This document shows positions 5,433-45,421 of a DNA stretch of 64,000 nt, piece after piece. A program made the translations under genes and the position numbers. The DNA comes from an uncultured Coriobacteriaceae bacterium (GTDB lineage Bacteria; Actinomycetota; Coriobacteriia; Coriobacteriales; Atopobiaceae). Position 1 is the first letter of the stretch. The number at the start of each line of letters is the position of its first letter. The notes beneath the pieces were generated by a model. That model was not told the DNA's origin and searched no databases. It was given only the letters and a program-made list of their open reading frames with translations. The stretch covers positions 1-64,000 of the forward strand of contig CADAAU010000001.1 of NCBI GenBank assembly GCA_902786015.1. Direction: 5' to 3'.

Positions 5433-5633
5433 ATGAACATCAACGACTTGTCTCCCGAGCTGCGGGAGAAGGCGCGTGCGTGCGGATCAACCGAGGAGCT
5501 GTTCGAGCTCGCCAAGGAGGAGGGCATGGAGATTCCCGACGAGCACCTCGAAGGCATCTCTGGCGGTTGGTGCTCTGAGCACGAATGGGGCTGCCCTGCC
5601 GACAAATGTGGCGTCTATGGCATCGGCCGGTAG
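5433..5633 (+). CDS. Nif11-type leader peptide, RiPP precursor (66 aa)
   Basis: A strong ribosome site (GGAAGGAGAGGGA) precedes the ATG. Residues 1-45 match the Nif11-like leader family: an N-terminal helix with LSPELREKARAC, then EELFELAKEEG and the end ISGG, where the leader is normally cut. The 21-residue core starts with WCSEHEWGC and has three Cys, two Trp, one Ser, no Thr and a Gly-Arg end. With a single Ser it can form at most one lanthionine, so another modification type is possible. No modifying enzyme is adjacent; the nearest candidates are the acyltransferase at 6.3-7.6 kb and the LanM at 20.1 kb. It converges on a second such gene. Confidence 0.85.
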   Translation: MNINDLSPELREKARACGSTEELFELAKEEGMEIPDEHLEGISGGWCSEHEWGCPADKCGVYGIGR

Positions 5634-5690: not shown

Positions 5691-5939
5691 TCAGTAGTAT
5701 TCGAAATCATATCCACAGTTGAGACATGTGCAATATGGGTTGCCGTATACGAAACTCTTGCTCCCGCATTTGGGGCATTTAAGCTCCTCGTTGGTCCAGA
5801 GGCCGCCGCCACTGATCTGGTCGAGATCTTCATCGGTCAGGGTGTAGCCCTCCTCCTTGGCCAGGGCCAAAATCTCCTCTGGTGTGCTACAAGCTTTGAC
5901 CTTAGCCCTCAGTTCGGGATCAAGGCTCTTAAGGTCCAT
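5691..5939 (-). CDS. Nif11-type leader peptide with zinc-ribbon-like core (82 aa)
   Basis: The ribosome site AAAGGAGG lies just before ATG 5939. The leader (residues 1-46) is of the Nif11 type: LDPELRAKVKAC, then EEILALAKEEG and ISGG. The core of about 36 residues contains CPKCG and, 14 residues later, CTCLNCG, so two CxxC-type knuckles as in small zinc ribbons, followed by the aromatic, acidic tail YDFEYY. This core is unlike usual lanthipeptide cores. It may be a metal-binding peptide, a fusion of a leader to a zinc-ribbon, or a precursor for an unknown modification. Convergent with the peptide gene at 5433, and downstream, on the same strand, of the acyltransferase gene. Confidence 0.8.
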   Translation of the reverse strand: MDLKSLDPELRAKVKACSTPEEILALAKEEGYTLTDEDLDQISGGGLWTNEELKCPKCGSKSFVYGNPYCTCLNCGYDFEYY

Positions 5940-6322: not shown

Positions 6323-7573
6323 TCACACAAGCTTGACTGGCTCCATCCCGCACAGGCGAAACGGCTCCTTGCGCACAACCTCGTAGTCGATTCCGATCGA
6401 CGAGAGCTCGCCCAGGAACACGTTCAAAAACGCATCTGACGCAAAGCTCTGCGCAACAGCAAGGAAGAAGCTGTTGTTGATGCAGGTCACCTCGCAGATC
6501 ACGTCTGCGACGCTGGGCTCCGAAAGCATGTACAGGCTCTCGACGTACGGGTCCAGAGGGCCAAGTGTCCGCATTCGAGGGTAGGAAATGGATACGGACC
6601 ACCGCGAGCGCCCTGCATCTTTCGACACCAAATCGAGCTTCATTTCAAGCGGCACCTGGTTCATCTTGTCGCAAAGCGCCTTCATCTGCCGCATCGCCCA
6701 GAGGGAGTTTTCCGGCCGCGCCTGCTCGGTTAGCTGCATGCGGGCGACGGCGCACGCCCCCTTTAGGTCGTTCAGCTGCATGTCCTTGGGAAAGTCCAGC
6801 TCCACAGCGCCGGAGGCCATGCGGTAGTTGTCGTGGTTTCCCAGCATCGCCTTGTGGTCGACCGACACCGAAACGCTCACCGTCTTCTCGCTAGCCGGGT
6901 CATGGCGCCTCACCGCCCTTGCGAACATCACGGACAGGAAGGCATTCGGGCTCGCAGCGTTGTCTTTGCAACGCTCCATAAACTGCGCCTCGGGCAACCG
7001 AATGTACGTGACGCGCGGGTCGGGGTCCGCGCCCTCACCCAGACGATAGAAATCGATGGCGGGCTCCTTGGCGGACGACGGCCTTTTTGCGCCGTCTATG
7101 TCCAGGCCGGCAAACGGGTCTCCCGTCTCGGACTCCGGTATGTTGTCTCCGGGCAGGCGAAAGCCCGTGCGATCGAGGGAAAGTCCCAGCTTGTTGGACA
7201 GATAGAGAAATAGCGCGCTCTTGATGTATGGGAGCAGTCCGGCCCCGTCCGTAAGAGTGTGAGCGATCTCGAAGCAGAGAAGGCGCCCCTCGTACTTCCA
7301 TGCGGCTAGATGGAGGTTCGACTCCTGTGAGCCAAGCTTGATCGGCGCCCACGTGTTCCGCACGGTCATGGGAAGCGGGTTCTCCTCCGGCAGCAGGTCC
7401 TTGTCCCGCGGCGCCGCCTTCACGTAGAAGTACGGAAACCGAACACGCAGGCTCTCCACGACGTCACGAAGCACGTTGCCGTCAACTGCCTCTTTTAGCC
7501 CAACAACAACCCCCATCGTGTTGGGACGGTCTGGCGTAGACATATAAAGCATTGGATCATAGAACTCTGCCAT
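6323..7573 (-). CDS. Condensation/alcohol-acetyltransferase-like protein (copy 1)
   Basis: A 416-residue soluble protein of the CoA-dependent acyltransferase superfamily (chloramphenicol acetyltransferase / NRPS condensation fold). The catalytic HxxxDG motif is visible as HTLTDG at about residue 137, inside a FEIAHTLTDGAG context; the second half contains the usual C-terminal subdomain. Proteins of this type move acyl groups from CoA or carriers to amines or alcohols. Here it stands alone, without carrier proteins. Start ATG 7573 has GGGAG upstream. Two relatives are found in the window (41904-43190 and 57679-58944). Its place next to two Nif11 peptide genes makes peptide acylation a possible but unproven role. 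Confidence 0.75.
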   Translation of the reverse strand: MAEFYDPMLYMSTPDRPNTMGVVVGLKEAVDGNVLRDVVESLRVRFPYFYVKAAPRDKDLLPEENPLPMTVRNTWAPIKLGSQESNLHLAAWKYEGRLLCFEIAHTLTDGAGLLPYIKSALFLYLSNKLGLSLDRTGFRLPGDNIPESETGDPFAGLDIDGAKRPSSAKEPAIDFYRLGEGADPDPRVTYIRLPEAQFMERCKDNAASPNAFLSVMFARAVRRHDPASEKTVSVSVSVDHKAMLGNHDNYRMASGAVELDFPKDMQLNDLKGACAVARMQLTEQARPENSLWAMRQMKALCDKMNQVPLEMKLDLVSKDAGRSRWSVSISYPRMRTLGPLDPYVESLYMLSEPSVADVICEVTCINNSFFLAVAQSFASDAFLNVFLGELSSIGIDYEVVRKEPFRLCGMEPVKLV

Positions 7574-15484: not shown

Positions 15485-15676
15485 ATGAAGTTTGACGACT
15501 TGACTGATGAGCAGAAGGCCCGGGTAAAGGCCTGCAAGACCGTCGATGAGCTGGTTGCGCTTGCCAAGGAGGAGGGCGTGGAGCTCAGCGAAGAGCAGCT
15601 TAGCAGCATTTCGGGAGGCGATAGTTGGTGGTGCCCGACTGCCACAAGCTGCCCGAATTATGAGGTCATGAGGTAA
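15485..15676 (+). CDS. Nif11-type leader peptide, RiPP precursor (63 aa)
   Basis: The ribosome site GAAAGGGGAAAC precedes ATG 15485. Leader residues 1-45 follow the Nif11 pattern (LTDEQKARVKACKT, then DELVALAKEEGVEL and SSISGG). The core is DSWWCPTATSCPNYEVMR: two Cys, two Ser, two Thr, two Trp. Ser or Thr residues before each Cys could give two (methyl)lanthionine rings if processed by the LanM at 20.1 kb. A terminator hairpin follows at 15726, so it is monocistronic, ahead of the unknown gene pair. Confidence 0.87.
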   Translation: MKFDDLTDEQKARVKACKTVDELVALAKEEGVELSEEQLSSISGGDSWWCPTATSCPNYEVMR

Positions 15677-15725
15677 GCTGCCACCTCGTCAGCGCGTAGC
15701 GCAGGACTCGGCTTTCGCGATTGGT

Positions 15726-15753
15726 GGGGACGGAGTCAGACGACTCCGTCCCC
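15726..15753 (+). terminator. Terminator after the Nif11 peptide gene
   Basis: Perfect 11-bp stem GGGGACGGAGT / ACTCCGTCCCC with a 6-base loop, followed by TTATAT. Confidence 0.75.
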
Positions 15754-15852
15754 TTATATGACCCGAACACTGTCATGATGCTCGGGTGTGGCTATGTACG
15801 GTATCCGAGCAGCGAGCGATAAGCGACGAACGAAACGACTGGATGGTGTTCT

Positions 15853-16881
15853 ATGAGCCTGGCTGGCAAGCCCTCTCAGATGACGGTGTTCGACGCGCTG
15901 TACTCGATAGCCGCAGGAGACGGCAGGGGCGAAGCGCTGTTTGGGAATAGCTTCGGCATTGCGAGGGGCGCCTACGAGCGTACGCTCATAGGCGACGGCT
16001 ATCCGGCAGCTTACATTGAGTTTCCCCTCCTCGGATCGCCGGGGTTCGATTTGCTCTCGGTTCACGACACCGTGCGACCCGGGTCTCGCTTCGCGCCGGG
16101 AGCTGGCTTCGGCTATCAGGCGATGCTCGACTGGTTTTCGAGTGTCCGCAAAAAGGGCGCCAATGTGAGCTGCGGCATCGAGCTCGACACGTCGGTTGGC
16201 GAAACCGAGCGGGCGGGCGTTTACCTGCAGTACCGCAGGCACACCGACCTGATCGCACCATTCTTGGAATCCATTGGCGAGGAAGCCCGCGCGGAAAGCT
16301 TTCTGGCCGTGGTCGATCGCATGCCCGAGGGCTGGCCGCCAGCCTATGTCGGCCTCTTCCCCGGACGGACGGGCACTCCGCTACGCATCGGCGGCTACCT
16401 GGGAGACGCCATGCAGAGGGCGTGCGTCGACGACCCCGCACTTCTGGCCGCCCAGTTCGACCGGATCGGCTTTTCCGCCTACGACGGCGAGATGCTCTCG
16501 CGATGTGGCGCGCTCCTGTCGCTCGCGCCGTCCGTCGACTTCCAGTTCGACATCATGCCCAACGGTACCCTGGGCGACGTGTTCGGGCTGTCGCTCTCGT
16601 TCAACGAGACGAGGCCTCGCGATGCCCGCGCCTGCATGGAGGGCGGCTACGGCGCCCAGGCGTGCGGGACCCTGCAGGAATGGGGGCTGGCAGACGAGCG
16701 CTGGAGGTTCATCGCCGGCGCAGCGTTCGCTCGCCATGTGCCGTTTGACCGGGAAGACGGATCGCAGGGCAGGTTCGCCCTCTGCTGCATGCTCAACTAC
16801 GCGAAGGTCAAGTTCGCCGGTGCCGTGGCGCAACCGGCTAAGTTCTACTTGACGATGTCTGCCGGCGAGGTGGAGGCATGA
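15853..16881 (+). CDS. Unknown protein A of a paralogous pair in the RiPP locus
   Basis: I do not recognise the family. The 342-residue product is soluble, without signal peptide or membrane helices. It shares an ordered set of motifs with the next gene: an N-terminal helix (MTVFDALYSIA), AYERTLIG..YPAAYIEFPLLGSPGFDLLSVH, MLDWF, GWPPAYVGLFPGRTGTPLRI, VDFQFDIMPNGTLGDVFGLSLSF and a C-terminal strand KVKFAG....AKFYLTM. The repeated two-strand/helix feel and the lysine/tyrosine-rich last strand recall ABBA-type aromatic prenyltransferases, but that is weak. The stop overlaps the start of the next gene (ATGA), so the two are made together. Both lie between Trp-containing Nif11 peptides, which suggests tailoring or immunity. 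Confidence 0.8.
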   Translation: MSLAGKPSQMTVFDALYSIAAGDGRGEALFGNSFGIARGAYERTLIGDGYPAAYIEFPLLGSPGFDLLSVHDTVRPGSRFAPGAGFGYQAMLDWFSSVRKKGANVSCGIELDTSVGETERAGVYLQYRRHTDLIAPFLESIGEEARAESFLAVVDRMPEGWPPAYVGLFPGRTGTPLRIGGYLGDAMQRACVDDPALLAAQFDRIGFSAYDGEMLSRCGALLSLAPSVDFQFDIMPNGTLGDVFGLSLSFNETRPRDARACMEGGYGAQACGTLQEWGLADERWRFIAGAAFARHVPFDREDGSQGRFALCCMLNYAKVKFAGAVAQPAKFYLTMSAGEVEA

Positions 16882-17876
16882 ACGCCGATGCGATGAGGCT
16901 CTACGAGACTCTGTACCGCCTTGCCTCCAAGGACGTAGGATGCGATCTGTTCGGGGCGAACGCCCCGCTTGCGCGGGAGGCGTTTCGGCGCGCTTTGGCG
17001 GGTGCGTCGATGCCCATCGTTTGGTTCGAGGTTCCGCTATCCGGCCTGCCGCGCTTCGACCTGCACGTCGCGCACGGCAACGCCGACCTCCACGGGCATG
17101 CCCCATTTGCACCGGATGCCATGGACGGGCATGGCGAGCTGCTTAACTGGTACGCGTCCGAGCCGCGTGCGGGCGGAGGGCTCGCGCTTGCCTACGACGT
17201 GGGAGATGGCCGCATCGGCGCTCCCGCCGTGCATGCCAACGTGAACGCCCTCGAAGTTTTCGATATCGAAGGATTCTTCCTCCACGTTGGAAGGCCGGAA
17301 GCAGCGGCGCTCTACCACGGCTTCGAAAAGCGGCTTCCGCGAGGTTGGCACATATGGTATTGCGGCGTGCATCCGGGCAGGCCGGGCGCTCCCGTCCGGG
17401 TTGACTGCTTCGTTGACAAGAGCTTGAAATGCGCATACGCTGCCGAACCCGCAAGGCTCGAAGAAGACCTCCAAAGAGCAGGATTTGCTGTCGAAGGCTC
17501 GGCGGCGCGACGCGTCGGGGCAGAAGTGGCCGCGTCCCCCTTTGGCGTGGAGCTCCAGTTCGACGTCCTCTCCGATGGGGCGCTCGGGCAAACTGTGGGC
17601 GTTTCTGCCCAGCTTCCCCTTGTGGCTGCGAGTGCGGCGCGTCGGCTTTGGGAACCCGCTGGTGGCGCAGCGCAGCTCATGGAGTTCGCCGTGGATTCAC
17701 GTGTCGCTGACGCCCGATGGCGATGTGTCCGAAAAACCATGTTCTCGACAGTGGCGCGAAATGGCAAGGTCTCGCAGGCACTCTACTGCATCCCTGTGTT
17801 TACGAAGTTTCGAGTGTGTGCAGACAAGCTTCTTGATGCGAAGATTTACCTTCAGGCAGGCGCGGTCTTATTATAA
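16878..17876 (+). CDS. Unknown protein B of the paralogous pair
   Basis: A 332-residue soluble protein, overlapping the previous gene by four bases. Alignment by eye to protein A: AFRRALAGASMPIVWFEVPL, RFDLHVAHG, LLNWY, GWHIWYCGVHPGRPGAPVRV, VELQFDVLSDGALGQTVGVS and the C-terminal KFRV.....DAKIYLQAG. Identity outside these blocks is low, so this is an old duplication, perhaps forming a heterodimer. The conserved GWxxxYxGxxPGRxGxPxR block is the best signature for searches. Function unknown; the hypothesis of a modifying enzyme pair for the neighbouring Nif11 peptides rests on position only. TAA at 17874 is followed by the promoter of the next peptide gene. Confidence 0.8.
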   Translation: MNADAMRLYETLYRLASKDVGCDLFGANAPLAREAFRRALAGASMPIVWFEVPLSGLPRFDLHVAHGNADLHGHAPFAPDAMDGHGELLNWYASEPRAGGGLALAYDVGDGRIGAPAVHANVNALEVFDIEGFFLHVGRPEAAALYHGFEKRLPRGWHIWYCGVHPGRPGAPVRVDCFVDKSLKCAYAAEPARLEEDLQRAGFAVEGSAARRVGAEVAASPFGVELQFDVLSDGALGQTVGVSAQLPLVAASAARRLWEPAGGAAQLMEFAVDSRVADARWRCVRKTMFSTVARNGKVSQALYCIPVFTKFRVCADKLLDAKIYLQAGAVLL

Positions 17877-17896
17877 CATTAATGCATTGTTCCGAT

Positions 17897-17927
17897 TTGA
17901 AACGATTGGGTCGCTATCGCATATTAT
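17897..17927 (+). promoter_or_regulatory. Candidate promoter of the 56-residue Nif11 peptide gene
   Basis: TTGAAA (17897-17902) and TATTAT (17922-17927) with a 19-bp spacing, about 60 bases before ATG 17992. Base composition drops to AT-rich here. Confidence 0.45.
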
Positions 17928-17991
17928 GAAATAGTGGGCACGTTGGTATGAGAGAGCCCACAAGGACCGTCAGATCGGAAGTGGGTGGGGT

Positions 17992-18162
17992 ATGGCAAAC
18001 TTTGACGAATTGACCGCTGAACAGATGGAAAAGGCGAGGGCGTGCAAGAACTCTGACGAACTGGTCGAGCTTGCTGCGTCCGAGGGCATCGAGCTCACCG
18101 ATGACCAACTCGAGGCCATCTCGGGTGGCTCGTGGTACAACTGCATGAACGAAACGTGGTAG
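17992..18162 (+). CDS. Nif11-type leader peptide, RiPP precursor (56 aa)
   Basis: A short gene of 56 codons. The leader (46 residues) has the Nif11 pattern FDELTAEQMEKARACKN, DELVELAASEGIELTD and EAISGG. The core is only SWYNCMNETW: Ser1, Cys5, Thr9 and two Trp, so at most one lanthionine ring (Ser1-Cys5). GGAAGTGGGTGGGGT precedes the ATG. It lies directly after the unknown gene pair and before the HipA-like kinase gene. A hairpin at 18191 may end its transcript. Confidence 0.85.
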   Translation: MANFDELTAEQMEKARACKNSDELVELAASEGIELTDDQLEAISGGSWYNCMNETW

Positions 18163-18190
18163 GCATTCGGCTCGAACACATTTGCCTAAC

Positions 18191-18227
18191 ATGACGCGGC
18201 GGTCGCATTATGTGACAGTCGCGTCAT
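18191..18227 (+). terminator. Hairpin after the 56-residue peptide gene
   Basis: ATGACGCG and CGCGTCAT are perfectly complementary with a 21-base loop that can pair further; no T run follows. Could be a terminator or an attenuating structure between the peptide gene and the kinase gene. Confidence 0.4.
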
Positions 18228-18319
18228 AGTGTTTCGTCAGTTGCTTTGGCAAGAAATGCTGTTGATGCTCGGTGACGAGTCTGATGTTATGCGTGCTTTT
18301 GCAGTGGGAAGAGGGAGCC

Positions 18320-19510
18320 ATGGTCAGGCGCACACTCATGCAACGCGACCGAGAGCTGGTCGACTTCGAGGTTGATCCGGTGACGGGGGAGGCTCGCATC
18401 ATCGATACGGCGAGCGACAACTTGACTGCTTCTTTGGGGCTGGTCCAGGGAAACAGGGATCAGGTTTTGACGTCACTCATGATGAGGCGCGCCCTATCGC
18501 CCATGCGCAAGGACTTGGATGACATCCTTGCCGCTTTTGGAGCAAAGTCACCTGTTGACCTTGCGCTTATGGGGCATGGACTCTCGCTTTCCGACCAGTT
18601 CTGGTATCGTGCCCCTGGATCCTCCGAACGCTGGAAGGACGTGAACTTCTTCGACAACGGATGGGATCCGGATTTTGGCGCGGCGGTCCTTTTGGGCGAT
18701 TACGCCCGTCTGGTGACCTGTTCGTCTGACGCTCCCGAAGCCACGACGCCTGGACACGCCGTCAAGGCGTGGGAGCGCAACGATGACGGCATACACCTTG
18801 TCAAGGCAGCCGAATACCCCGATGGTGGCGAGCTCGTAGGTGCCAGACTGGGATTCGATCTATGCTCCTTGCTCTTTGGCGAGGGTTGCTGCGTTTCCTT
18901 GGACGTGGTGGAGCGCTATGGCAGACTCTGCTCGATCAGCCCACTCATGTTGGGTGGCGATGAGGAGCTCGCCGACGGGAACCGGATCTTTGCAATGGCG
19001 GATATGTGGGAGAGCTCCTGCTTGAGCACGGGGGGCATCACGACGGAGGCATGCGACGCCCTCATCGATGCCTATGCAGCCATCGGAGTTGCAGATGCCT
19101 CGGCACACGTGGCCAGGCGGGCATGCTTCTCCTGCCTTTCTTTGCTTTTGGATTTCAACCCAGGCAACTTCGGCGCCATTCGCAAAACCGATTCGGATGT
19201 GTGGCGTGCGGCACCCATCTTCGATTACGACGGCGCTTTTGGCTTCCCGCTCAATGGTGTCTCGATCTCCTTCTTATGCGAGAACCCCTCTTTCGTCGAG
19301 CTGTTCTGCGCCCATCGCTTCTCTTTCCTCAAGTCATCTTGGGACTGGTCTTGGTGCGATGTGCGAGCACTCGATGGCTTTGAGGACGTCATCATGGAGA
19401 CCTACGCTTCCTGCCGGAGCCTTCCGCCAGTCTTCGCAGAGCTCATTGCCCATCTGTTTGTTGCGCAGCGCGATTACGTGAACAAGGTTGCGTCGGGAGG
19501 ACGGACGTAG
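18320..19510 (+). CDS. HipA-like kinase
   Basis: A 396-residue protein with hallmarks of HipA-like serine/threonine kinases of Firmicutes and Actinomycetota: HGLSLSDQFWYR with the W-K-D-V-N-F-F-DNGW segment at about residues 80-115, the catalytic loop LLLDFNPGNFGAIRKT and the metal-binding APIFDYDGAF. HipA proteins phosphorylate translation or signalling targets in toxin-antitoxin systems, but this family without a HipB partner has no known role. ATG 18320 follows AGAGGGAG; a longer frame from 18272 lacks a site. Inside the RiPP locus it might regulate producer physiology, or be an orphan HipA; nothing in the sequence decides. Confidence 0.7.
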   Translation: MVRRTLMQRDRELVDFEVDPVTGEARIIDTASDNLTASLGLVQGNRDQVLTSLMMRRALSPMRKDLDDILAAFGAKSPVDLALMGHGLSLSDQFWYRAPGSSERWKDVNFFDNGWDPDFGAAVLLGDYARLVTCSSDAPEATTPGHAVKAWERNDDGIHLVKAAEYPDGGELVGARLGFDLCSLLFGEGCCVSLDVVERYGRLCSISPLMLGGDEELADGNRIFAMADMWESSCLSTGGITTEACDALIDAYAAIGVADASAHVARRACFSCLSLLLDFNPGNFGAIRKTDSDVWRAAPIFDYDGAFGFPLNGVSISFLCENPSFVELFCAHRFSFLKSSWDWSWCDVRALDGFEDVIMETYASCRSLPPVFAELIAHLFVAQRDYVNKVASGGRT

Positions 19511-19690
19511 CGACGGGTCTTTAGAGCATCCAGATTCGACAACGGAACTGCAGCTGACTGTCGTCAAATGCACACGCATGAGAGCCGTAGTGCCTCCGGA
19601 ACAAACTCCCCGGGAACTCTGTTCCACTAGAGCCGTAGTGCCCCGACGCTTCTTGCGCTTGTCCAAAGGTTACAGGATTGTTCGCGAGAG
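19511..19690. other. Intergenic region before lanA with a short direct repeat
   Basis: GAGCCGTAGTGCC occurs twice, near 19581-19593 and 19630-19642, about 50 bp apart. No gene is seen. The spacing could reflect regulator sites for the lantibiotic genes or be chance. Confidence 0.35.
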
Positions 19691-19754
19691 ATAGAATCAA
19701 ATTCTATGGTGGTCTGGGAGTTCATAGCCACATATGTGCTAGGCTAACTATGAT
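19691..19754 (+). promoter_or_regulatory. Operator-like palindrome and -10 box upstream of the lanthipeptide genes
   Basis: A perfect inverted repeat ATAGAAT-caa-ATTCTAT lies at 19691-19707. A -10-like TATGAT is at 19749-19754, giving a transcript start about 25 bases before the ATG at 19787. A good -35 box is not visible, as expected for an activator-dependent promoter. No regulator gene lies next to it. Confidence 0.45.
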
Positions 19755-19786
19755 TATAGTGGTGTTGATGTAAGGAGGTTGATTGT

Positions 19787-20086
19787 ATGAAGACGATACA
19801 GGAGCTGTACGGTGAGGTCATTGCCAGCGACGAGCAGAAGAAGGCCTTCGTCGAGGCTATGAAGGCAGACAAGCTCGAAGACTTCCTGAAGGCGCACGGC
19901 TGCGAGGCAACCAGAGAGGAAGTCCAGGAGTTCATTGATGCCAAGGCGGCCGAGGACGCCCCGATCGAGCTCAGCGATGACGAGCTCAAGTATGTCGCCG
20001 GTGGCAGCTTCGTCGATAGCGTTGAATGCTCCCATAAAAGCAACACGTGCAATTGCTCGAACAGCTGCATCCGCGATTGTTGCTAG
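19787..20086 (+). CDS. Class II lanthipeptide precursor (LanA, 99 aa)
   Basis: AAGGAGG precedes the ATG by 8 bases. A long acidic leader (about 73 residues) ends in LKYVAGG, a double-glycine site cut by class II peptidase-transporters. The core of 26 residues has six Cys and seven Ser/Thr, with pairs such as SVEC, NTC, NCSNSC and a final DCC, enough for up to six rings. The leader differs from the short Nif11 leaders (extra N-terminal helix and KAAEDAPIEL before the site) and resembles long nitrile-hydratase/Nif11-like leaders. The LanM gene starts 12 bases after the stop codon, so they are one operon and this is very probably its cognate substrate. Confidence 0.9.
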   Translation: MKTIQELYGEVIASDEQKKAFVEAMKADKLEDFLKAHGCEATREEVQEFIDAKAAEDAPIELSDDELKYVAGGSFVDSVECSHKSNTCNCSNSCIRDCC

Positions 20087-20098
20087 AAATCCCTGCGG

Positions 20099-22801
20099 AT
20101 GTTCCGGTACTTCGTTGAGTATCAGGTTGCCCGTGTCAAACAGTGTCCACAGGCGAGCATGCTTGGGGACAGGGTCTACGAGAGGCTTGAAGACGCCCTG
20201 AAGCGTAAGGTTGAGCTCGTGGCCGGCAGCACGGCGACGCACATGATTTCCCAGGCGGTGGTGGACAACCCGTTCGCCACCGCTTTTCCAGACCTGATCA
20301 CCGATGCCGAGCGCACGCAGGCCTTGGATACGATACGCAGGCAGCTCGACAGCGGGGCCATGACTCTGCCGGAGCCGCTCGTTGCATGCCTTGAGCTGCA
20401 GCTTGGCAATGCGACGAGCGGCCTTCTCGAGGCGCTGGACCGCCTAGCGGAGCATCGCGATGAGATTTGCGATGTGCTCCTGGAGGGAAGGCGCTTCCAA
20501 ACGATTGACGATGTCATCCTTTCGACCGGCGATGCCCACAACTGCGGTCGAAGCGTCACGATCTTTACCACCGATGCCGGAAAGCTGGTCTACAAGCCTC
20601 ACGACCTGCGGGTAGACGAGCAGCTCTACGGATTCGTCGGGCGGTTCTTCGGCGACTTCGTTGGCATCCCGCGCGCTATCGCCTTCGGGAGCCAGTTTGG
20701 GGTGTGCGAGTTCGTCGAAAAGCGGCGCGCGGAGGGCGAGCGCGAGGCGAAGCGCTTTTGGTACCACATGGGTGGCCTGGCGGCCTTCGCTAAGCTCTTG
20801 GGTAGCACCGACCTCCACTTCCAGAACATCCTCTGCTGCCAGACGATGCCCTACATCATCGACCTCGAGACCATGCTGTCTCCCATCTCTGCCGAGCGCC
20901 TGGCCTATCTGCAGTCTGCGGACACGAGGGAGTGCCACACGCATTCGATCGCCCCCTCGTTGCTCATGCCCTCTCGAGTCGAGGATATGGAGTTAAGCGT
21001 CCTCACCAACACGGAGGAGAGTGGTATCGCCCCCGTCGTGGATGGGAAGATCGTTACCGTGGAGCCCTACGTGCCCACGTTCAAGCAGGGCTATAGCGTC
21101 ATCTACTCCCGCATCGTCGAGCACAAGCAGGCGATTCGGGAGGCCGTGTTGTCGTTTCCCTCGGACATGAAGGTCCGGATCGTCCTGCGCGCTACGAGGG
21201 GCTATTGGCTGATTCTGCAAAAGCTGTACCACCATTCGGCCCTGGCAAGCCCCGCAGATAGGCAGCGTAGCCTGGAGACATGCGAGAGGATTTTGCGTGA
21301 GAGCGACGTAACCGCAGAGCCTCCGATAATCGATAGCGAGGTCGCGCAGATGCGGCGGGGCGACGTGCCGTACTTCTACACCTACGCCGATGGTCTGTCT
21401 CTGTATGGCGAGGGAGAAGAGCTCGTACAAGGCAAATTCAGTCTGTCGGCGATCGAGCGCATAGTTGACACCCTCGACGCGATGGGCGAAGAGGACGAGG
21501 CGTTTGACCTTACCTATATCGAGCGCGCGATCATGATGTATGACTGCGAATCGGATGCGCCGAAAATGGAAGCCCCGATTCGCCGGGATGTCGCAGATGT
21601 CCCCATTTCCAGGGAGTACGCGATCGAGACAGCTAGAAGGGTGTTCCAGAGGATGCACGATTTGGGAATACGGACACCTAACGGGCGGCTGGTGTGGGGA
21701 TATGTTTCCAGCAATACCCAGGCGTTCCAGTTCAGCGACGCCGGTCTGTTCGACGGCTTTACCGGACTTGCGGTGTTTGCCTCTGCCTGCGCGGCGGTAT
21801 GGCCCGACGACCTGATTCGCGAGCGGACGGACGCGCTCCTGTGGGAGGCGGTCGACGAGATACGGGGGCTGTGCCGTTTCGTGGACAGACATATTGGCAA
21901 CCCCGATGTCAGCGTACCCGTGGGGGAAGGCGCCGGCTTTGGAGGAATCTTGACCGGCATCGCGCTCATGCGGCGCTATGCACCGAGCGAGACGTTGGAC
22001 GACCTCTGCGAGCAGGTCTTGGCGCTTCTTGAACGGACGGACTTCTCTGGCTGTTCGGTGGCTGACCGGATTGGCGGTCTGGCAGGGCTCGTTGCCGTCT
22101 TGTGCAGGTTCGAGGAATACCGGGGCAATACGACAACGATCCGCAACGCAGCCAATCGCATCCTCGAACTGAGGACATGCGCGTACAGGGATCGCGTCCT
22201 CTGGAAGACCATGTTCGATGTGCCCCGAGCACTCAGCGGTGCCGGGCACGGAATGTCGGGAATCGCCGAGGCCCTTGTCGCCGCGGCCGACGTTCTGGGT
22301 GATGACCGGTATCTCCCCGCCGCTACTGAGGCGCTGGGTTACGAAATCGATGCCTATCGACGCTATGAGAAGATATTCGGTACTTGGGCAGACCTGCGGG
22401 AGTTCCCGCCGATGAAGTACATGCACGGATATTGCGCGGGGGCGCCCGGTACGGGAATCGTGGTTAACCGCATGTTGGAAGAGGGACGCGGCGACACGAG
22501 GGCGCAGGCCATCGCTCGCATGGTTCGACAGAGCGTCGACTCGCTTCCCCTGATGCCCTTCGACCACCTGTGCTGCGGAAACTCAGCCGTCGCGGAGTAC
22601 TATCTGTCCACAGGCGACCATGAGGCCACCGGTAGGGTCCTTGGGGCCATAGCCGGACATGGCTCGCACGAGGGCAAGCATCGGGACCCCCTTTCGAACG
22701 TGAGCTGCAACTCGGCCGCCACGCTCTTCAACGGGATCGGCGGCATTGGCTACGAGCTGTTGCGCTATGCGTATCCAGATACGATACTCTCCGTCCTGTA
22801 A
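20099..22801 (+). CDS. lanM: LanM bifunctional lanthionine synthetase, CCG type
   Basis: A 900-residue class II synthetase. The dehydratase half shows STGDAHNCGRSV (about 141-152), LVYKPHDLRVD, WYHMGGLAAFAKLLGSTDLHFQNI and IDLETML, the kinase-like motifs that phosphorylate Ser/Thr of the substrate. The cyclase half has the LanC motifs GHGMSGIAE, YCAGAPGTG (Cys779) and LCCGNSA (Cys825-Cys826). The last is CCG in place of the usual CHG, giving three cysteine zinc ligands as in ProcM-like enzymes, which are known for broad substrate range. The enzyme is slightly shorter than usual at the N-terminus; ATG 20099 has a weak site, with ATG 20159 as an alternative. No peptidase-transporter follows. 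Confidence 0.93.
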   Translation: MFRYFVEYQVARVKQCPQASMLGDRVYERLEDALKRKVELVAGSTATHMISQAVVDNPFATAFPDLITDAERTQALDTIRRQLDSGAMTLPEPLVACLELQLGNATSGLLEALDRLAEHRDEICDVLLEGRRFQTIDDVILSTGDAHNCGRSVTIFTTDAGKLVYKPHDLRVDEQLYGFVGRFFGDFVGIPRAIAFGSQFGVCEFVEKRRAEGEREAKRFWYHMGGLAAFAKLLGSTDLHFQNILCCQTMPYIIDLETMLSPISAERLAYLQSADTRECHTHSIAPSLLMPSRVEDMELSVLTNTEESGIAPVVDGKIVTVEPYVPTFKQGYSVIYSRIVEHKQAIREAVLSFPSDMKVRIVLRATRGYWLILQKLYHHSALASPADRQRSLETCERILRESDVTAEPPIIDSEVAQMRRGDVPYFYTYADGLSLYGEGEELVQGKFSLSAIERIVDTLDAMGEEDEAFDLTYIERAIMMYDCESDAPKMEAPIRRDVADVPISREYAIETARRVFQRMHDLGIRTPNGRLVWGYVSSNTQAFQFSDAGLFDGFTGLAVFASACAAVWPDDLIRERTDALLWEAVDEIRGLCRFVDRHIGNPDVSVPVGEGAGFGGILTGIALMRRYAPSETLDDLCEQVLALLERTDFSGCSVADRIGGLAGLVAVLCRFEEYRGNTTTIRNAANRILELRTCAYRDRVLWKTMFDVPRALSGAGHGMSGIAEALVAAADVLGDDRYLPAATEALGYEIDAYRRYEKIFGTWADLREFPPMKYMHGYCAGAPGTGIVVNRMLEEGRGDTRAQAIARMVRQSVDSLPLMPFDHLCCGNSAVAEYYLSTGDHEATGRVLGAIAGHGSHEGKHRDPLSNVSCNSAATLFNGIGGIGYELLRYAYPDTILSVL

Positions 22802-23001: not shown

Positions 23002-23928
23002 CTAAGCTTTGGTTCTGCGATACAAGCAGGGTTCTCTGGAATCAATCGGTCGGAGCCCGAAGGACGATCGTAGTTGCTCGACGAACCTTTCTGCAATGGG
23101 GGTCATGAGTTGTCGTTTTCCCCACACAAGGTAGAGCGTCACGTCGACGGATGGCTCAAGCGGACGGAACACAAGGCCGCTGCTCGGCGAGGTGTCCACG
23201 AGTCGATCAAACGTGAGCAGCAGCCCTAGGCCCTCGCGTGCGAACAGCGACGCATTGTATGACAGTCTGAAGGAGCCCTCTAGGCGCAGCTCAGCAAGGT
23301 GGTTTCCCGCCCACTGGGCGATGTCGCCCTGCCATCCTTGTTCGGAGACGAAGAGCGGCTCGCCTATAAGGTCAAATACCGTGATCGTTGCGCACCGCGC
23401 AAGAGGATGGTCATCCCGCATCACGACTCCCCACAAGTCGCTTTCGGGTAGCTCGACCCAGTCGTAGCGCTGGGCGTCAGGGCGCTCGCAGAGTACCGCA
23501 AAGTCGAGCAGGCCCCGATTGAGCCTCTCGGTCACCTGCTCGGTGTCACCACTTGTCACGTGGTAGCGCAGCCCAGGGCACGATTCCTTGAGCTTTCGCA
23601 GCTCCTGTGCGACGAGGCGAATTTGGTATGACTCTGCCATGCCCAAGCGCAGCTCTCCGGCGAGCTGGCCGTCGATCGAGCGGAACTCGTCTTCTATCTT
23701 GTCGGCGAGCCCCACCAAGTCTCGCGCGCGGTCGCGTAGCAGGCGTCCCTCGTCGGTGAGCTCTATGCTAAAGCTGTGACGGACGAAAAGGCGCGCGTCC
23801 AGCTCGGCCTCGAGCGACTTGAGCGCCTTGGAGAGCGTCGGCTGGGTGAGGTGCAGCCGTGCCGCGGCGCGGGTCATGTTCTCCTCCTGTGCTACGGCCA
23901 GAAAGTAGCGCAGCGTGCGGATCTCCAT
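23002..23928 (-). CDS. LysR-family transcriptional regulator (copy 1)
   Basis: A 308-residue LTTR. The N-terminal helix-turn-helix reads RYFLAVAQEENMTRAAARLHLTQPTLSKALKSLE, followed by a ligand-binding domain with SCPGLRYHVTSGDTEQVTERL and a SEQGWQGD.. cleft region. It is divergently transcribed from the hydrolase gene and shares a 120-bp intergenic region with a palindromic operator, the classical arrangement for LysR control of the neighbour operon. Start ATG 23928 (MEIRTL) has AGAAGG at 9 bases; the ATG at 23937 does not. A rearranged copy is present at 43548-44471. Confidence 0.92.
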   Translation of the reverse strand: MEIRTLRYFLAVAQEENMTRAAARLHLTQPTLSKALKSLEAELDARLFVRHSFSIELTDEGRLLRDRARDLVGLADKIEDEFRSIDGQLAGELRLGMAESYQIRLVAQELRKLKESCPGLRYHVTSGDTEQVTERLNRGLLDFAVLCERPDAQRYDWVELPESDLWGVVMRDDHPLARCATITVFDLIGEPLFVSEQGWQGDIAQWAGNHLAELRLEGSFRLSYNASLFAREGLGLLLTFDRLVDTSPSSGLVFRPLEPSVDVTLYLVWGKRQLMTPIAERFVEQLRSSFGLRPIDSREPCLYRRTKA

Positions 23929-23955
23929 GGATGCCATCCTTCTGATAGTCGTATA

Positions 23956-23982
23956 AGTAATATCACGATATACGATATTACT
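23956..23982. promoter_or_regulatory. LysR operator: 9-bp inverted repeat with 9-bp spacer
   Basis: AGTAATATC and GATATTACT, perfectly complementary, surround ACGATATAC. It lies midway between the divergent LysR and hydrolase starts. LysR-type regulators bind T-N11-A interrupted palindromes, which this contains. The copy at 44.4 kb has lost this whole region. Confidence 0.6.
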
Positions 23983-24048
23983 ATTAGCGTGGTACGCTGC
24001 GGCATGCGACAATGTAGACAAGCAAAAGCGCGACCGAAGGAGCACGCC

Positions 24049-25059
24049 ATGATCCAGACCGAGAGCCTCACACTCGTTACCGAATGGGACAAGACCTTCC
24101 CCAAGAGCGACGTGATCGACCACCAAAAGGTGACCTTCCCCAATCGCTACGGCATCACGCTGGCAGCCGATCTGTACACCGATCTGTACATGCCCAAAGG
24201 TACCGAAGGTAAGCTCGCCGCCATCGCCGTGTGCGGGCCCTTTGGCGCGGTGAAGGAGCAGTGCTCGGGCCTCTATGCACAGACGCTTGCCGAGCGCGGG
24301 TTCGTGACGCTCGCCTTTGACCCGAGCTTCACTGGCGAGAGCGGTGGTCAGCCCCGCTACATGGCCTCGCCTGACATCAACACCGAGGACTTCATGGCGG
24401 CGGTTGACTTCCTGAGCCTGCACGAGCGCGTGGACGCCGAGCGCATCGGCATCTGCGGCATCTGCGGTTGGGGCGGCATGGCGCTCAACACCGCCGCGCT
24501 CGACACGCGCATTAAGGCGACCGTGGTCTCCACCATGTACGACATGACCCGCGTGAACGCGAACGGCTACTTCGATGCCGAGGACAGCGAGGAGGCACGT
24601 CACGCAAAGCGCGAGGCGATGTGCGCCCAGCGTCTGGCGGACCTGCAGGCTGGCGAGTACGCGCTTGGCGGCGGTGTGGTCGACCCGTTGCCTGAAGACG
24701 CCCCCGATTTCGTGGCCGACTACTACGACTACTACAAGACGCCGCGCGGCTACCATTCCCGCTCGCTCAACTCCAATGGCGGATGGAACGTAATTGGCTG
24801 CCAGTCCTTCATGAACCAGCCCATCCTGCGCTACTCCAACGAGATCCGCTCGGCCGTCCTCGTGATGCATGGCGACGCGGCCCACAGCTGCTACTTTGGA
24901 CGCGACGCGTATGCGAACATGCTTGATGGCAACGCCTACGCCGACAACAAGGAGCTGCTCATCATCCCCGGCGCTTCGCATACCGACCTCTACGATGGCG
25001 GTGAGAGCAAGGTCATTCCCTGGGACAAGCTCGATAGCTTCTATCGGCAGTACCTGTAA
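24049..25059 (+). CDS. Alpha/beta hydrolase with a cysteine nucleophile motif (copy 1)
   Basis: A 336-residue cytoplasmic hydrolase. The nucleophile elbow reads GICGWGG, so Cys replaces the usual Ser, as in dienelactone hydrolases; the acid is probably Asp in MHGDAAHS and the base His in GASHTDLYD. LAFDPSFTGESGG and the N-terminal KVTFPNRYGITLAADLY match the DltE/YcjY-like group of alpha/beta hydrolases. Substrate unknown. ATG 24049 lies in CGAAGGAGCACGCC-ATG, a good site. It is followed after 10 bases by the aldo-keto reductase gene; both should be controlled by the divergent LysR. A copy at 44470-45421 is broken by a 59-bp deletion. Confidence 0.9.
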   Translation: MIQTESLTLVTEWDKTFPKSDVIDHQKVTFPNRYGITLAADLYTDLYMPKGTEGKLAAIAVCGPFGAVKEQCSGLYAQTLAERGFVTLAFDPSFTGESGGQPRYMASPDINTEDFMAAVDFLSLHERVDAERIGICGICGWGGMALNTAALDTRIKATVVSTMYDMTRVNANGYFDAEDSEEARHAKREAMCAQRLADLQAGEYALGGGVVDPLPEDAPDFVADYYDYYKTPRGYHSRSLNSNGGWNVIGCQSFMNQPILRYSNEIRSAVLVMHGDAAHSCYFGRDAYANMLDGNAYADNKELLIIPGASHTDLYDGGESKVIPWDKLDSFYRQYL

Positions 25060-39130: not shown

Positions 39131-40018
39131 ATTTGCGTCAACGATCGGTGGTTCGGGGGAGAGCCGCTGCTCGCATCCGACGTTATCGACGAGCTTAGCG
39201 CGCGCCTCATGGACATAGCCGAGCGCTTCGGCGTGGGCTACGACGGCATAATCCACACGAACGGCTACCTGCTCGACCAGGAGATGGTCGACTTCCTAGA
39301 GGCGCGCAACGTACGCACTGCCATCGTGCCCATCGACGGCATGGGGGCCGCCCACGACGCGACGCGTCACCTGGCGGGCGGCGGACCCACGTTCGACGTC
39401 ATCATGGGCAACCTGCGCTCCATCCGCACCTCGATGTTTGTGAACGTCCGCAACAACCTGCATGCGGGAAGTCTGGAGCGGTTCGGCGAGCTGTGCGAGG
39501 CGGTAGACACCATCGCGCGGGAGAACGGCACGAACATCCGGTGCAGCCCCAGCAGGGTGAAGCGGACCGCCGCCGGCGTGGCGCGCGGGGACACCACGCC
39601 CATCATATCCGAGGCGCAGTACGAGCGGGCCCTCGCGAGGACTGACCTTCCCGCCAAGATGCGCTCCTTCACCCCGGTGATGGCGCCGTGCCCGGCCGCG
39701 CTTCCCAACGAGGTCCACATCGACGAGCTTTGCAACGTCTTCCCACACTGCAGCTTCTACTCGGATGACCCGTCGTATTCCGTGGGCAACCTGCTCGACG
39801 CGGACGGCAGTGCGGGCGCCTGGCTGAGCAAGCTTGAGGAACGGGCGAAAGAGCTCTGCTTCCCGGACGACCAGTCCCGATGCCTCGCGTGCAAGTTCCT
39901 GCCGTGTTGTTTGGGCGGCTGTCCCATTCAACGCATCGAAAGCGGCGAGCCTGAGTGTCCGTCGGCGCTCTTCGACCCGGATGCGTACGCTATCGCTCGC
40001 GTGCGCGAGGTGGGCTGA
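39131..40018 (+). pseudogene. Radical SAM/SPASM maturase lacking its N-terminus
   Basis: In frame from about 39131 the sequence reads ICVNDRWFGGEPLLASDVID, then IHTNGYLLDQEMVDFL, VPIDGMGAAHDATRHLAGGG and a C-terminal SPASM domain with cysteines at CPAALP, ELCNVFPHC, CLACKFLPCCLGGC and ECP. The first 100-130 residues, with the CxxxCxxC cluster motif, are absent and a TGA precedes the frame. It belongs to the same family as the maturase at 56094-57427 (shared GGEPLL, TNGYLL, DATRRLVGGGPTFD). ATG 39209 could start a truncated product, but it could not bind the SAM cluster. Confidence 0.75.
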
Positions 40019-41903: not shown

Positions 41904-43190
41904 TCACGATGCCCATCTGGTCGTTGGCACAGAACTTGGTTTTATCTCGGCCACGTTAACCGGCGTAGTTCCGCAGTCTACGTACGGGATGCCATTCTCT
42001 TGGAGTTCCTCCAACAGCGCGTCATAGTAGAGCCGCTCAGAGAATGGCTGGAGGATCGAGGCACAGATGTTTCCGTTCACTGCCGCAAGTTCGACCAGCG
42101 GGAATGATTGGCTTGGCGTTTCCATCCAGAACTCCCTTATGTGTTTGCCGACCTGGGGGTATTTCCATTTCCCAACATAGCTGACCATATAGGTGGCAGA
42201 ATCGTACGTGCCCTCCATTGCCTGCCGCGCGAACGCCGCCTTCGTCGAGAAGTCCGGCATGTCCAGAATCATTTGTGCCATGGATCCTGCGATCGTCATC
42301 CCCTGCACAATCGTGTCCTCGTCCGCCTGTACAAATGTTTTCCCCCTATAGACAGTACATTGTCTCTCCAAAGAGAGCTGGCGGACCCTGTCGTCAAAGT
42401 GGAAGACGACCCTGTTCGTGCAATTGTGGAAGGTGTCGTCCGCCTTCAGCATGGGACGCGCGTTGACGACGTAATTGCTGATGAGCGGCAGCTCGTGATG
42501 CGGGTGGATGCGTTCGATCGCCCGCGCGATCAGCACTGACAGCAATATGCCAGGAGTGCCGTCATGCGACTTGGTGAACCGGAGGAAGGGCTCTTCAGGG
42601 ATCATGAGCTTTAGAATCAGCCCCTTTCCGCCCGCATGCTCAAGACCGGATTCTTCCATGAGCTGCAGCGCCTTCGGCGAGGCAGGGAGGTTGAGCGTGC
42701 TGAGGTCGATCAGAGGCAGGTCATCCACCGGGTCGCGTGTTTCAGCCTCCGAGACCGGCGTGTCCAGCGTTTTTATGCCGGGGACATCATGCTCGTCATA
42801 ATAGTAGTACAGCAGTGTGGCGATTAGGGAATACACACCCGTTCCGTCGGAACGCCCATGGAAGAAGTCGATATACAGATTGTCCTCGTCGTAGCATACG
42901 GCCCAGACATGGCCGTTCGTTTTCGGGGTGCCGAGCGCTACCGTTTCCTTCGTGTGGAGCAGCGCGACCGGACTGCTGTTCACCTCGTAGTAGTACTCAC
43001 GCTCGTTGCGTTTGAGGGAGACGCAGAAATACGGGTACCTTTGTGCGGTCTTATCCAGTGCGTCTCTCATCTTTTGCTTATCGACCCTGTGATCGAGTCG
43101 CAGGTGAATTCGAATCGTATAGCTTCCGTGGCTCGTTGCATAGAGCATCGTCGCGTCTCCGCGCGTCACCTTTAAAGCATTGTCTACCAT
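41904..43190 (-). CDS. Condensation/alcohol-acetyltransferase-like protein (copy 2)
   Basis: A 428-residue relative of the protein at 6323-7573. The catalytic motif is HGRSDG in a YIDFFHGRSDGTGVYSLI context at about residue 113. It begins with the pattern TIRIHLRLDHRVDKQKMRDALDKTAQRYPYF, the same opening as copy 3 (TVRMKTRLDAPVDTALLNEAAQETIARFPYF). Sequence appears complete. No biosynthetic partner genes are adjacent; it lies between a broken TetR gene and a MITE-like element. Substrate unknown; an acyl transfer role is inferred from the fold. Confidence 0.75.
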   Translation of the reverse strand: MVDNALKVTRGDATMLYATSHGSYTIRIHLRLDHRVDKQKMRDALDKTAQRYPYFCVSLKRNEREYYYEVNSSPVALLHTKETVALGTPKTNGHVWAVCYDEDNLYIDFFHGRSDGTGVYSLIATLLYYYYDEHDVPGIKTLDTPVSEAETRDPVDDLPLIDLSTLNLPASPKALQLMEESGLEHAGGKGLILKLMIPEEPFLRFTKSHDGTPGILLSVLIARAIERIHPHHELPLISNYVVNARPMLKADDTFHNCTNRVVFHFDDRVRQLSLERQCTVYRGKTFVQADEDTIVQGMTIAGSMAQMILDMPDFSTKAAFARQAMEGTYDSATYMVSYVGKWKYPQVGKHIREFWMETPSQSFPLVELAAVNGNICASILQPFSERLYYDALLEELQENGIPYVDCGTTPVNVAEIKPSSVPTTRWAS

Positions 43191-43547: not shown

Positions 43548-44471
43548 TTAGAGTTCAAAGGATGATCGCACCTGTTCTACGAACCTTTCTGCAATGGGGT
43601 TCATGAGCTGCCGCTTGCCCCATGCGAGGTAGAGCGTCACCTCGGCAAGCGGGTCGAGTGGGCGAAACACCAGACCGCTGCCCGGCGAGGTGTCGACAAG
43701 TCGGTCGAAGGTGAGCAAAAGCCCCAAACCTTCGCGGGCAAATACCGATGCGTTGTAGGACAGCCTGAAGGAGCCCTCAAGGCGAAGTTGCGAAAAGTGG
43801 TCGCCCGCCCACTGCGCGATGTCACCCCGCCATCCTTGTTCGGAGACAAAGAGTGGCTCGTCCACAAGGTCGGATGGTGTGACAGACGTGCGTCGCGCAA
43901 GCGGATGGTCATCTCGCATCACGACGCCCCACCGATCTTGCTCGGGCAGCTCGACCCAGTCGTAGCGCTGGACGTCGGGCCGCTCGCAGAGAACCGCGAA
44001 GTCGAGCAACCCCCCCCGGTCGAGCCTCTCGGTAACCTGTTCTGTGTCGCCGCTCGTTACGTGGTAGCGCAGGCCAGGACATGACTCTTTGAGCTTGCTC
44101 AGCTCCTGTGCTATGAGGCGTATTTGGTACGACTCCGCCAGACCCAGTCGAAGCTCCCCGGCCAGCTGACCGTCAACCGAGCGGAACTCTCCCTCGATCT
44201 TGTCGGCGAGCCCCACCAGGTCACGCGCGCGGTCGCGCAGCAAGCGTCCCTCGTCGGTGAGTTCGATGCTAAAGCTGTGGCGGACAAAGAGGCGCGCATT
44301 CAGCTCGCCCTCAAGCGACTTGAGCGCCTTGGAGAGCGTCGGCTGGGTCAGGTGCAGCCGTGCTGCGGCGCGGGTCATGTTTTCCTCCTGCGCCACGGCC
44401 AGGAAGTAGCGCAACTCAAAGCGAGGCGTGAGAATGAATTCAAGTAAAACACGACCGAAGGAGCGCGCCAT
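43548..44471 (-). pseudogene. LysR-family regulator, copy 2 with lost 5' end
   Basis: From RYFLAVAQEENMTRAAARLH onward it is about 85-90 percent identical to the LysR at 23002-23928. The original start MEIRTL and the whole intergenic operator are replaced by an unrelated 30-base stretch, so translation would have to begin at ATG 44471, inside the hydrolase start region, giving MARSFGRVLLEFILT first. One extra Gly stems from an eight-C run near 44009-44016. The DNA-binding helix is intact, so a residual function is conceivable. Confidence 0.65.
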
Positions 44472-45421
44472 GATCCAGACCGAGAACCTTCAACTCGTTG
44501 CCGAATGGGACAAGACCTTCCCCAAGAGCGACGTGATCGACCACCAAAAGGTGACCTTCCCCAATCGCTACGGCATCACGCTGGCAGCCGATCTGTACAC
44601 CCTTTGGTGCGGTGAAGGAGCAGTGCTCCGGTCTCTATGCCCAGACGCTCGCCGAGCGTGGTTTCATCACCTTGGCTTTCGACCCGAGCTTCACTGGCGA
44701 GAGCGGCGGCCAGCCCCGTTACATGGCCTCGCCCGACATCAACACTGAGGACTTCATGGCCGCCGTTGACTTCCTCAGCCTACACGAGCGCGTGGACGCC
44801 AATCGCATTGGCATCTGCGGCATCTGCGGTTGGGGCGGGATGGCGCTCAACACCGCCGCGCTCGACACGCGCATTAAGGCGACCGTGGTCTCCACCATGT
44901 ACGACATGACCCGCATAAACGCAAACGGCTATTTTGACTCCGAGGACAGCGAGGAGGCACGGCACGCAAAGCGCGAGGCGCTGTGCGCCCAGCGCCTCGC
45001 GGACCTGCGGGCAGGTGAGTATGCCCTTGGTGGTGGCGTGGTCGACCCGCTGCCCGCCGATGCGCCCGACTTCGTGGCGGGCTACTATGACTACTACAAG
45101 ACGCCGCGCGGCTACCACGCCCGTTCGCTCAACTCCAACGGTGGCTGGAACGTCATCGGCTGTCAGTCCTTCATGAACCAACCCATCCTGCGCTACTCCA
45201 ACGAGATTCGTTCTGCCGTACTCGTCATGCACGGCGATGCGGCCCACAGCTGCTACTTCGGCCGCGACGCATACGCACACATGATCGAGGGCAATGCGTA
45301 CACAGACAACAAGGAGCTGCTCATCATCCCCGGCGCCACGCACACCGACCTCTACGACGGTGGTGCGAACGGTGCCATCCCCTGGGACAAGCTCGAGAGC
45401 TTCTACCAGCAGTACCTGTAG
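44470..45421 (+). pseudogene. Alpha/beta hydrolase, copy 2 with 59-bp deletion
   Basis: Begins like the hydrolase at 24049 (MIQTENLQLVAEWDKTFPKS), then lacks 59 bp after the codons for LAADLYT compared with copy 1, which shifts the frame. From 44612 the remainder continues in another frame, 95 percent like copy 1, up to ESFYQQYL and the stop. A GTG at 44612 could start the C-terminal part, which still has GICGWGG and the catalytic His, but it lacks the first strands. Confidence 0.8.

Follow-up and report, generated by a model that had tools for sequence, protein, structure and literature searches.

A predicted prenyltransferase family accompanies tryptophan-marked Nif11-leader peptides at a lanthipeptide locus of an uncultured Coriobacteriaceae bacterium

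Introduction

The first 64,000 nucleotides of contig CADAAU010000001.1, from an uncultured Coriobacteriaceae bacterium (this whole stretch is called the window), carry between positions 15485 and 22801 the genes of a class II lanthipeptide synthetase (LanM) and its precursor (LanA), together with two of the four peptides with a Nif11-type leader found in the window. Which enzyme serves the Nif11-leader peptides? In a preliminary description the LanM, whose zinc motif reads CCG, was proposed to modify them all in the manner of ProcM. The same interval also holds two tandem genes of a predicted prenyltransferase (PT) family, PT-A and PT-B, and a gene for a HipA-like kinase, all of which that description had missed. 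We favour, with a probability of roughly 0.7, a reading in which neighbouring modules for ribosomally synthesized and post-translationally modified peptides (RiPPs) share the locus, namely a LanA-LanM pair, Trp prenylation guided by the leaders of many Nif11 peptides and a HipA-like kinase at the Nif11-leader gene N4. For lipid-tagging the scattered Nif11 peptides, PT-A and PT-B are better candidates than LanM.

Results

Nif11-leader peptides and the genes between them

The PT genes are enclosed by the Nif11-leader genes N3 and N4, and two unlinked ones, N1 and N2, lie upstream.

15485-15676, plus strand: N3, Nif11-leader peptide with core DSWWCPTATSCPNYEVMR after Gly-Gly (GG); PF07862 at 25.3 bits, above the cut-off
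15853-16881, plus strand: PT-A, predicted PT-barrel prenyltransferase (ABBA/DMATS-like, that is, of the alpha-beta-beta-alpha type of dimethylallyltryptophan synthases), 342 residues; from AlphaFold2 fold, Foldseek and VIA
16878-17876, plus strand: PT-B, paralog of PT-A, 332 residues; full-length homolog, overlapping PT-A by 4 nt
17992-18162, plus strand: N4, Nif11-leader peptide with core SWYNCMNETW; eight orthologs, alone below the Pfam cut-off
5433-5633, plus strand: N1, unlinked Nif11-leader peptide with core WCSEHEWGCPADKCGVYGIGR; identical core in genomes G072, G073 and G074
5691-5939, minus strand: N2, Nif11-leader gene, unlinked; GG-GLW present, C-terminus zinc-ribbon-like; PF07862 at 47.6 bits, zinc-ribbon matches weak

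All four had been recognized as Nif11-leader genes in the preliminary description, and the assignment holds: N2 and N3 score above the PF07862 cut-off, while N1 (21.1 bits) and N4 (14.3 bits), which fall below it, are assigned by leader similarity, their leaders having 18-25 of 45 residues in common with those of the others. The TIGR03798 cut-off was passed by N2 only. The core of N3 is conserved across five species, and N3 adjoins PT-A in loci L065, L066, L068 and L069. The core of N1 is nearly unchanged in L071, where the gene lies ~0.7 kb from PT-A, and in N4 both core Trp residues, Cys51 and the NETW end are invariant across the eight orthologs. Since N1-N4, LanA and LanM have conserved orthologs in other species, they are not chance open reading frames (ORFs). 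A zinc-ribbon-like CxxC...CxxC C-terminus, with no short core, follows the Nif11 leader at L047 9835-10125 and L048 9706-9969 as it does in N2; there are several genes of this type per genome, the majority of which retain a Trp just after GG.

Fold of the PT family

Scans against Pfam and NCBIfam matched no family in PT-A or PT-B, and none of 26 PT family members matched PF11991 (Trp_DMAT) at E <= 1, a model which also found no match in the genome to which the window belongs. A PDB sequence search with the family gave no meaningful match, and a fold comparison was therefore needed. The AlphaFold2 model of PT-A, built from a 75-sequence alignment, reached a predicted local distance difference test score (pLDDT) of 95.5 and a predicted template modelling score (pTM) of 0.92, with its elements in alpha-beta-beta-alpha order. 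In a Foldseek search with this model, all 28 matches at E <= 0.001 were aromatic prenyltransferases, the top match being a 5-dimethylallyltryptophan synthase from Streptomyces (E 1.7e-6). VIA-align 2 aligned PT-A to 6zry with Z 15.8 over 270 residues (root-mean-square deviation (rmsd) 4.4), to CymD with Z 15.7 over 285 residues (rmsd 4.2) and to the cyanobactin enzymes PatF, LimF and KgpF with Z 13.5-13.8; the top match spans residues 5-340 of PT-A, which is near full length. As modelled, PT-A has the PT-barrel fold. PT-B, 27% identical to PT-A, has the invariant residues of the family, and its fold is predicted from this homology.

Eleven residues are invariant among the 75 aligned members. 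E56, R172, K330 and Y332 are invariant, R178 and K318 nearly so, and the conserved E56, R178, Q231/D233, K318 and K330/Y332 fall on predicted strands in a pattern that is reminiscent of DMATS active sites, equivalence to the catalytic and diphosphate sites of DMATS not being established. Judged from model and conservation, PT-A and PT-B would be active in prenyl transfer.

Co-occurrence of PT genes and Nif11 peptides

We surveyed 140 genomes from the bacterial family of the window, and gathered wider relatives of the PT family with an alignment of a PT-A subset. The PT family was found in 37 of the 140 genomes, often in multiple copies and as tandem pairs; named relatives come chiefly from metagenome-assembled genomes of ruminant-gut Coriobacteriia, with a few from Clostridia. 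Nif11-type peptides were present in all 37 PT genomes and in 5 of the 103 others. Because the genomes are related, the count by genus is the fairer one: 9/9 genera with PT had Nif11 peptides versus 1/26 without (p 1.4e-7). Of the 56 PT loci fetched, 23 had a Nif11 gene within 2.5 kb of the PT gene, where we estimate that ~2-3% would be expected by chance (about ten genes per 3.5 Mb; 0.03 was used in the test). A 4-nt overlap joins the peptide gene to the PT gene in the clostridial locus L101, and at L093 the PT gene is adjoined by a Nif11 gene bearing GG-SW. PT copies are also frequently found among housekeeping genes.

A tryptophan mark after the GG site

To avoid bias from the cores, a leader-only model (A8) was used to list the Nif11 peptides of nine PT-bearing and five PT-free genomes. 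A Trp was found within six residues after GG in 51/66 cores from PT genomes, nearly always at positions 1-4, versus 3/16 cores from the PT-free side, the latter coming from four genomes only (p 2.4e-5). With repeated cores removed the figures were 38/51 and 3/14 (p 4.7e-4). An enrichment of the mark restricted to the vicinity of PT genes had been considered and was rejected, since it occurred in 23/30 peptides near PT genes and 51/59 far from them (p 0.25); that sample was biased by a search model which included the core Trp, and the analysis was redone with the leader-only model as PT-bearing versus PT-free. The constant distance between leader and Trp fits a register set by the leader, as proposed for MppC (PMC12715784), and the equal frequency near and far fits enzymes working in trans on a scattered repertoire, and also allows shared ancestry.

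LanM and LanA

19787-20086, plus strand: LanA, class II lanthipeptide precursor with core SFVDSVECSHKSNTCNCSNSCIRDCC; upstream of lanM, core kept among LanM neighbours
20099-22801, plus strand: LanM with CCG zinc motif (C779, C825, C826); TIGR03897 above the cut-off, assigned by motif and tree

In the profile search, LanM showed a DUF4135 dehydratase domain (E 1.1e-61) and a LANC_like cyclase domain (E 3.7e-22), and its TIGR03897 score (396.8 bits, the cut-off being 304) makes it a class II lanthipeptide synthetase. Alignment with relatives bore out the LCCGNSA motif and the three Cys ligands described earlier, with Cys779 in GYCAGAPG and Cys825-Cys826 in HLCCGNSA. CCG is the motif of every in-family LanM where it is readable, and the cyclase domains of these enzymes form one clade separate from the CHG references, with which no clustering was seen, in a tree whose few outside references are long-branched and do not include ProcM, and which indicates no sister group. 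LanA, named earlier as the probable partner, is indeed encoded there, with an AAGGAGG ribosome site and with its stop 12 nt upstream of lanM, and its core is conserved between species at LanM neighbours (NTCNCSN-CIRDCC), with neither Trp nor Tyr. Its leader has 73 residues versus 45 in the Nif11 peptides, and an adjacent LanA of its own is typical of the clade to which LanM belongs. The pair is most likely an ordinary CCG LanM with a single LanA, a separate neighbour of the prenylation module.

DUF4135 was found in 15 of the 140 genomes, two others have partial LanM genes, and all 17 bear PT genes; 20 of the 37 genomes with PT and Nif11 have no LanM. Among the latter, G073 (99% complete) retains N3 beside PT-A, where the N3 core reads DSFWCPTATSCPNYEVMR, and an N1 whose core has not changed. 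The leaders of N1-N4 align poorly to that of LanA, and the many hypervariable precursors sharing the leader type of the LanM substrate that mark ProcM-like systems were not found. CCG LanMs with Nif11 precursors are also seen in Nostoc (L175) and in Mycetohabitans (L179, with the precursor beside LanM), and CCG LanMs are reported from archaea (PMC10027976), so that finding a CCG enzyme beyond cyanobacteria is no novelty. The suggestion of a multi-substrate system outside cyanobacteria is not supported with LanM as the enzyme; a many-substrate system may exist, and the enzyme family that tracks its peptides is the prenyltransferase.

In some relatives, PT genes are found at other lanM genes. 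They overlap or abut a different lanM in G132 and G133 and flank another one in G075 (L059, L060, L116), and the LanA cores of these loci mostly lack an early Trp. At L059 1639-5501, L060 8754-14358 and L117 1639-5498, PT-family genes directly overlap or flank a lanM other than that of the window, which has a LanA of its own. These loci point to prenylated lanthipeptides, and some family members may modify lanthipeptides, perhaps at other residues.

The HipA-like kinase and export

18320-19510, plus strand: HipA-like kinase of ~396 residues, between N4 and LanA; ATG 18320 likely, the ORF finder lists GTG 18272

The ATG at 18320 is preceded by GAGGGAG. K162, D278, N283 and D302 are invariant in 18 aligned relatives; by analogy with HipA and CtkA, they are taken as the ATP Lys, the catalytic Asp, the Asn and the metal Asp. 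The Pfam scan of the window kinase was empty, the cut-off of HipA_C (PF07804) not being reached, whereas relatives match HipA_C, the distant L202 passing the cut-off of 30.5 at 31.6 bits. A profile search gave a weak CtkA match aligned at the same loop. The AlphaFold2 model of the kinase had a pLDDT of 45.9 and was discarded, and the HipA relation is argued from the relatives. Members of the kinase family adjoin Nif11 genes in G073, G075 and G005 (L193, L194, L197), PT-free in the fetched stretch. In G064 a decayed N4-like copy, with leader end and core altered, lies beside an intact kinase gene (L198 507-707). The kinase relative at L190 309-1655 (minus strand) carries an N-terminal HTH_17 DNA-binding domain, which suggests that other members of the kinase family act as regulators. 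Going by its neighbourhood, the window kinase probably phosphorylates an N4-type peptide.

C39 peptidase domains of known exporters cleave after GG. Such domains were found in 12/12 PT genomes tested and also in several PT-free ones; export by a C39 system is plausible and not specific to PT genomes.

Other features of the window

A radical-SAM gene was identified at 56094-57197 (minus strand) by a Pfam match, and an ORF at 39209-40018 (plus strand) has a similar Cys-rich C-terminus. A LysR-type regulator gene beside an alpha/beta-hydrolase-like gene forms a cassette that occurs twice in nearly identical form, ~20 kb apart (23002-25059 and 43548-45421). Three ORFs of ~420 residues, all on the minus strand (6323-7573, 41904-43190 and 57679-58944), are alike by eye and have acyltransferase/condensation-like starts; a Pfam scan of the one scanned, 6323-7573, gave no match.

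Discussion

In the mechanism that we propose, the Nif11 leader would dock onto the DMATS-like PT-barrel enzyme, which would move an isoprenyl group from its donor onto the Trp 1-4 residues past Gly-Gly, and the leader would then be cut off by a C39 ABC exporter that cleaves after GG and whose gene lies elsewhere. The unlinked Nif11 peptides are probably served in trans by PT-A/PT-B too, and the HipA-like kinase probably phosphorylates Ser/Thr of N4. More tentatively, and at somewhat less than even odds, the Coriobacteriia of the ruminant gut would have a diversity-oriented RiPP system built on a new family of leader-guided Trp prenyltransferases rather than on a lanthionine synthetase; these would act in trans on ~3-20+ scattered GG-Trp Nif11 peptides per genome, with paired enzymes perhaps serving two Trp positions and the kinase adding phosphate.

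The closest parallel is MppC of Moorena producens, a PT-barrel enzyme which requires a Nif11-like leader, geranylates Trp and prefers a lanthionine macrocycle (PMC12715784). As with MppC/MppE/MppM, the window has a PT-barrel enzyme encoded with Nif11-leader precursors (N3-PT-A-PT-B-N4) and a LanM nearby, and its cores are Trp-marked where MppC has a Trp acceptor; the PT system probably works like MppC. However, the window PTs appear to form a separate, Pfam-invisible family of gut Coriobacteriia and Clostridia, and they are often paired and have many unlinked candidate substrates. A lanthionine synthetase that could make a macrocyclic acceptor is absent from the 20 LanM-free PT genomes, G073 included, and because LanM is missing in over half of the PT genomes we do not class the system as a member of the MppC type. 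The bacterial indole/Trp prenyltransferases SCO 5-DMATS, CymD, PriB and IptA (PF11991) are the best fold matches (Z 15-16, nearly full length), but they share only ~11% identity with the PT family and take free Trp or small molecules as substrates, while the PT neighbours in the window are peptide precursors. PatF, KgpF and LimF likewise combine the PT-barrel fold with a RiPP context, but differ in gene context and are 5-8% identical to PT-A; cyanobactin prenyltransferases are leader-independent and late-acting (PMC12715784). Trp-prenylated ribosomal peptides outside cyanobacteria are also made by PalQ/ComQ of Bacilli, PalX having an NHLP leader (PMC10853753), but these enzymes belong to the isoprenoid-synthase superfamily and not to the PT-barrel proteins. 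The prochlorosin system (ProcM/ProcA) resembles the present one in a CCG LanM and in Nif11-leader peptides that are numerous, scattered and diverse in their cores; here the peptides are tracked by a prenyltransferase, individual cores are conserved between species and LanM is often absent.

Several observations weigh against the prenylation reading. No Nif11 gene is recognisable within 2.5 kb in 33 of the 56 PT loci, the Trp mark shows no excess near PT genes, and the PT-free side of the Trp comparison is small. In L059 and L060, PT genes lie with a LanM and a LanA whose core has no early Trp. Related Pfam prenyltransferase models besides Trp_DMAT gave no match to the PT family, and an hhalign comparison with Trp_DMAT (Prob 29) was weak and out of register and was discarded.

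An unlikely alternative is that the acceptor of the PT-barrel proteins is a small molecule, or that these proteins have lost activity, the Trp serving another enzyme, such as a radical-SAM cross-linker, or recognition by the exporter. The many PT loci apart from Nif11 genes, often amid housekeeping genes, would fit this, as would the radical-SAM protein encoded within the window. Against it, PT genes co-occur almost perfectly with both Nif11 peptides and the Trp mark, C39 exporters are present also where peptides lack the mark, and the barrel strands hold acidic, basic and aromatic residues whose invariance argues that catalysis is retained.

Slightly less probable is a joint pathway, in which one set of peptides would be modified by both PT-A/PT-B and LanM to give prenylated lanthipeptides, as by MppM and MppC. 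The genes in 15485-22801 are same-strand and tightly spaced, with no strong terminator-like sites between them, in a promoter and terminator scan of this interval that gave little above shuffled sequences; the macrocycle preferred by MppC (PMC12715784) and the PT paralogs that flank or overlap lanM in L059, L060 and L117 also agree with such a pathway. However, N3-PT-A in G073 and the PT-A/PT-B/N4/kinase block on contig C9 of G132 occur without this LanM, the modules lie apart in G074, where PT-A is on a separate contig from the PT-B/N4/kinase block, and the LanA core has no residue of the Trp or Tyr type.

The proposal that LanM, as a promiscuous ProcM-like enzyme, dehydrates and cyclises N1-N4 besides LanA is the least probable, and we rejected it because of how the genes are distributed and how the leaders differ: its CCG motif, the literature tie between such LanMs and Nif11-type leaders (PMC10027976), the Ser/Thr and Cys of N3 and the presence of Nif11 peptides in every LanM-bearing genome of the survey are set against the LanM-free genomes that keep the peptides, a LanA core that is conserved rather than hypervariable, a single Ser and no Thr in N1, and the change of Ser47 to Ala in the N4 of two species.

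The PT-Nif11 system as such was not reported in the literature that we searched, most subscription papers lying outside that search. Prenylation of RiPPs is known mainly from cyanobacteria. What is new here is a prenyltransferase family that Pfam does not recognise and that is linked, outside cyanobacteria, to Nif11 peptides with the Trp mark; Trp prenylation is the reaction that we infer for this family. If this is correct, gut bacteria would possess a peptide-prenyltransferase family with many natural substrates, recognisable by the simple mark of GG, 0-3 residues and Trp, and Trp would be lipidated site-specifically under the guidance of a leader. Such a family would account for those orphan Nif11 peptides that genome mining by gene cluster would overlook or credit to LanM, and would predict an unseen class of gut lipopeptides.

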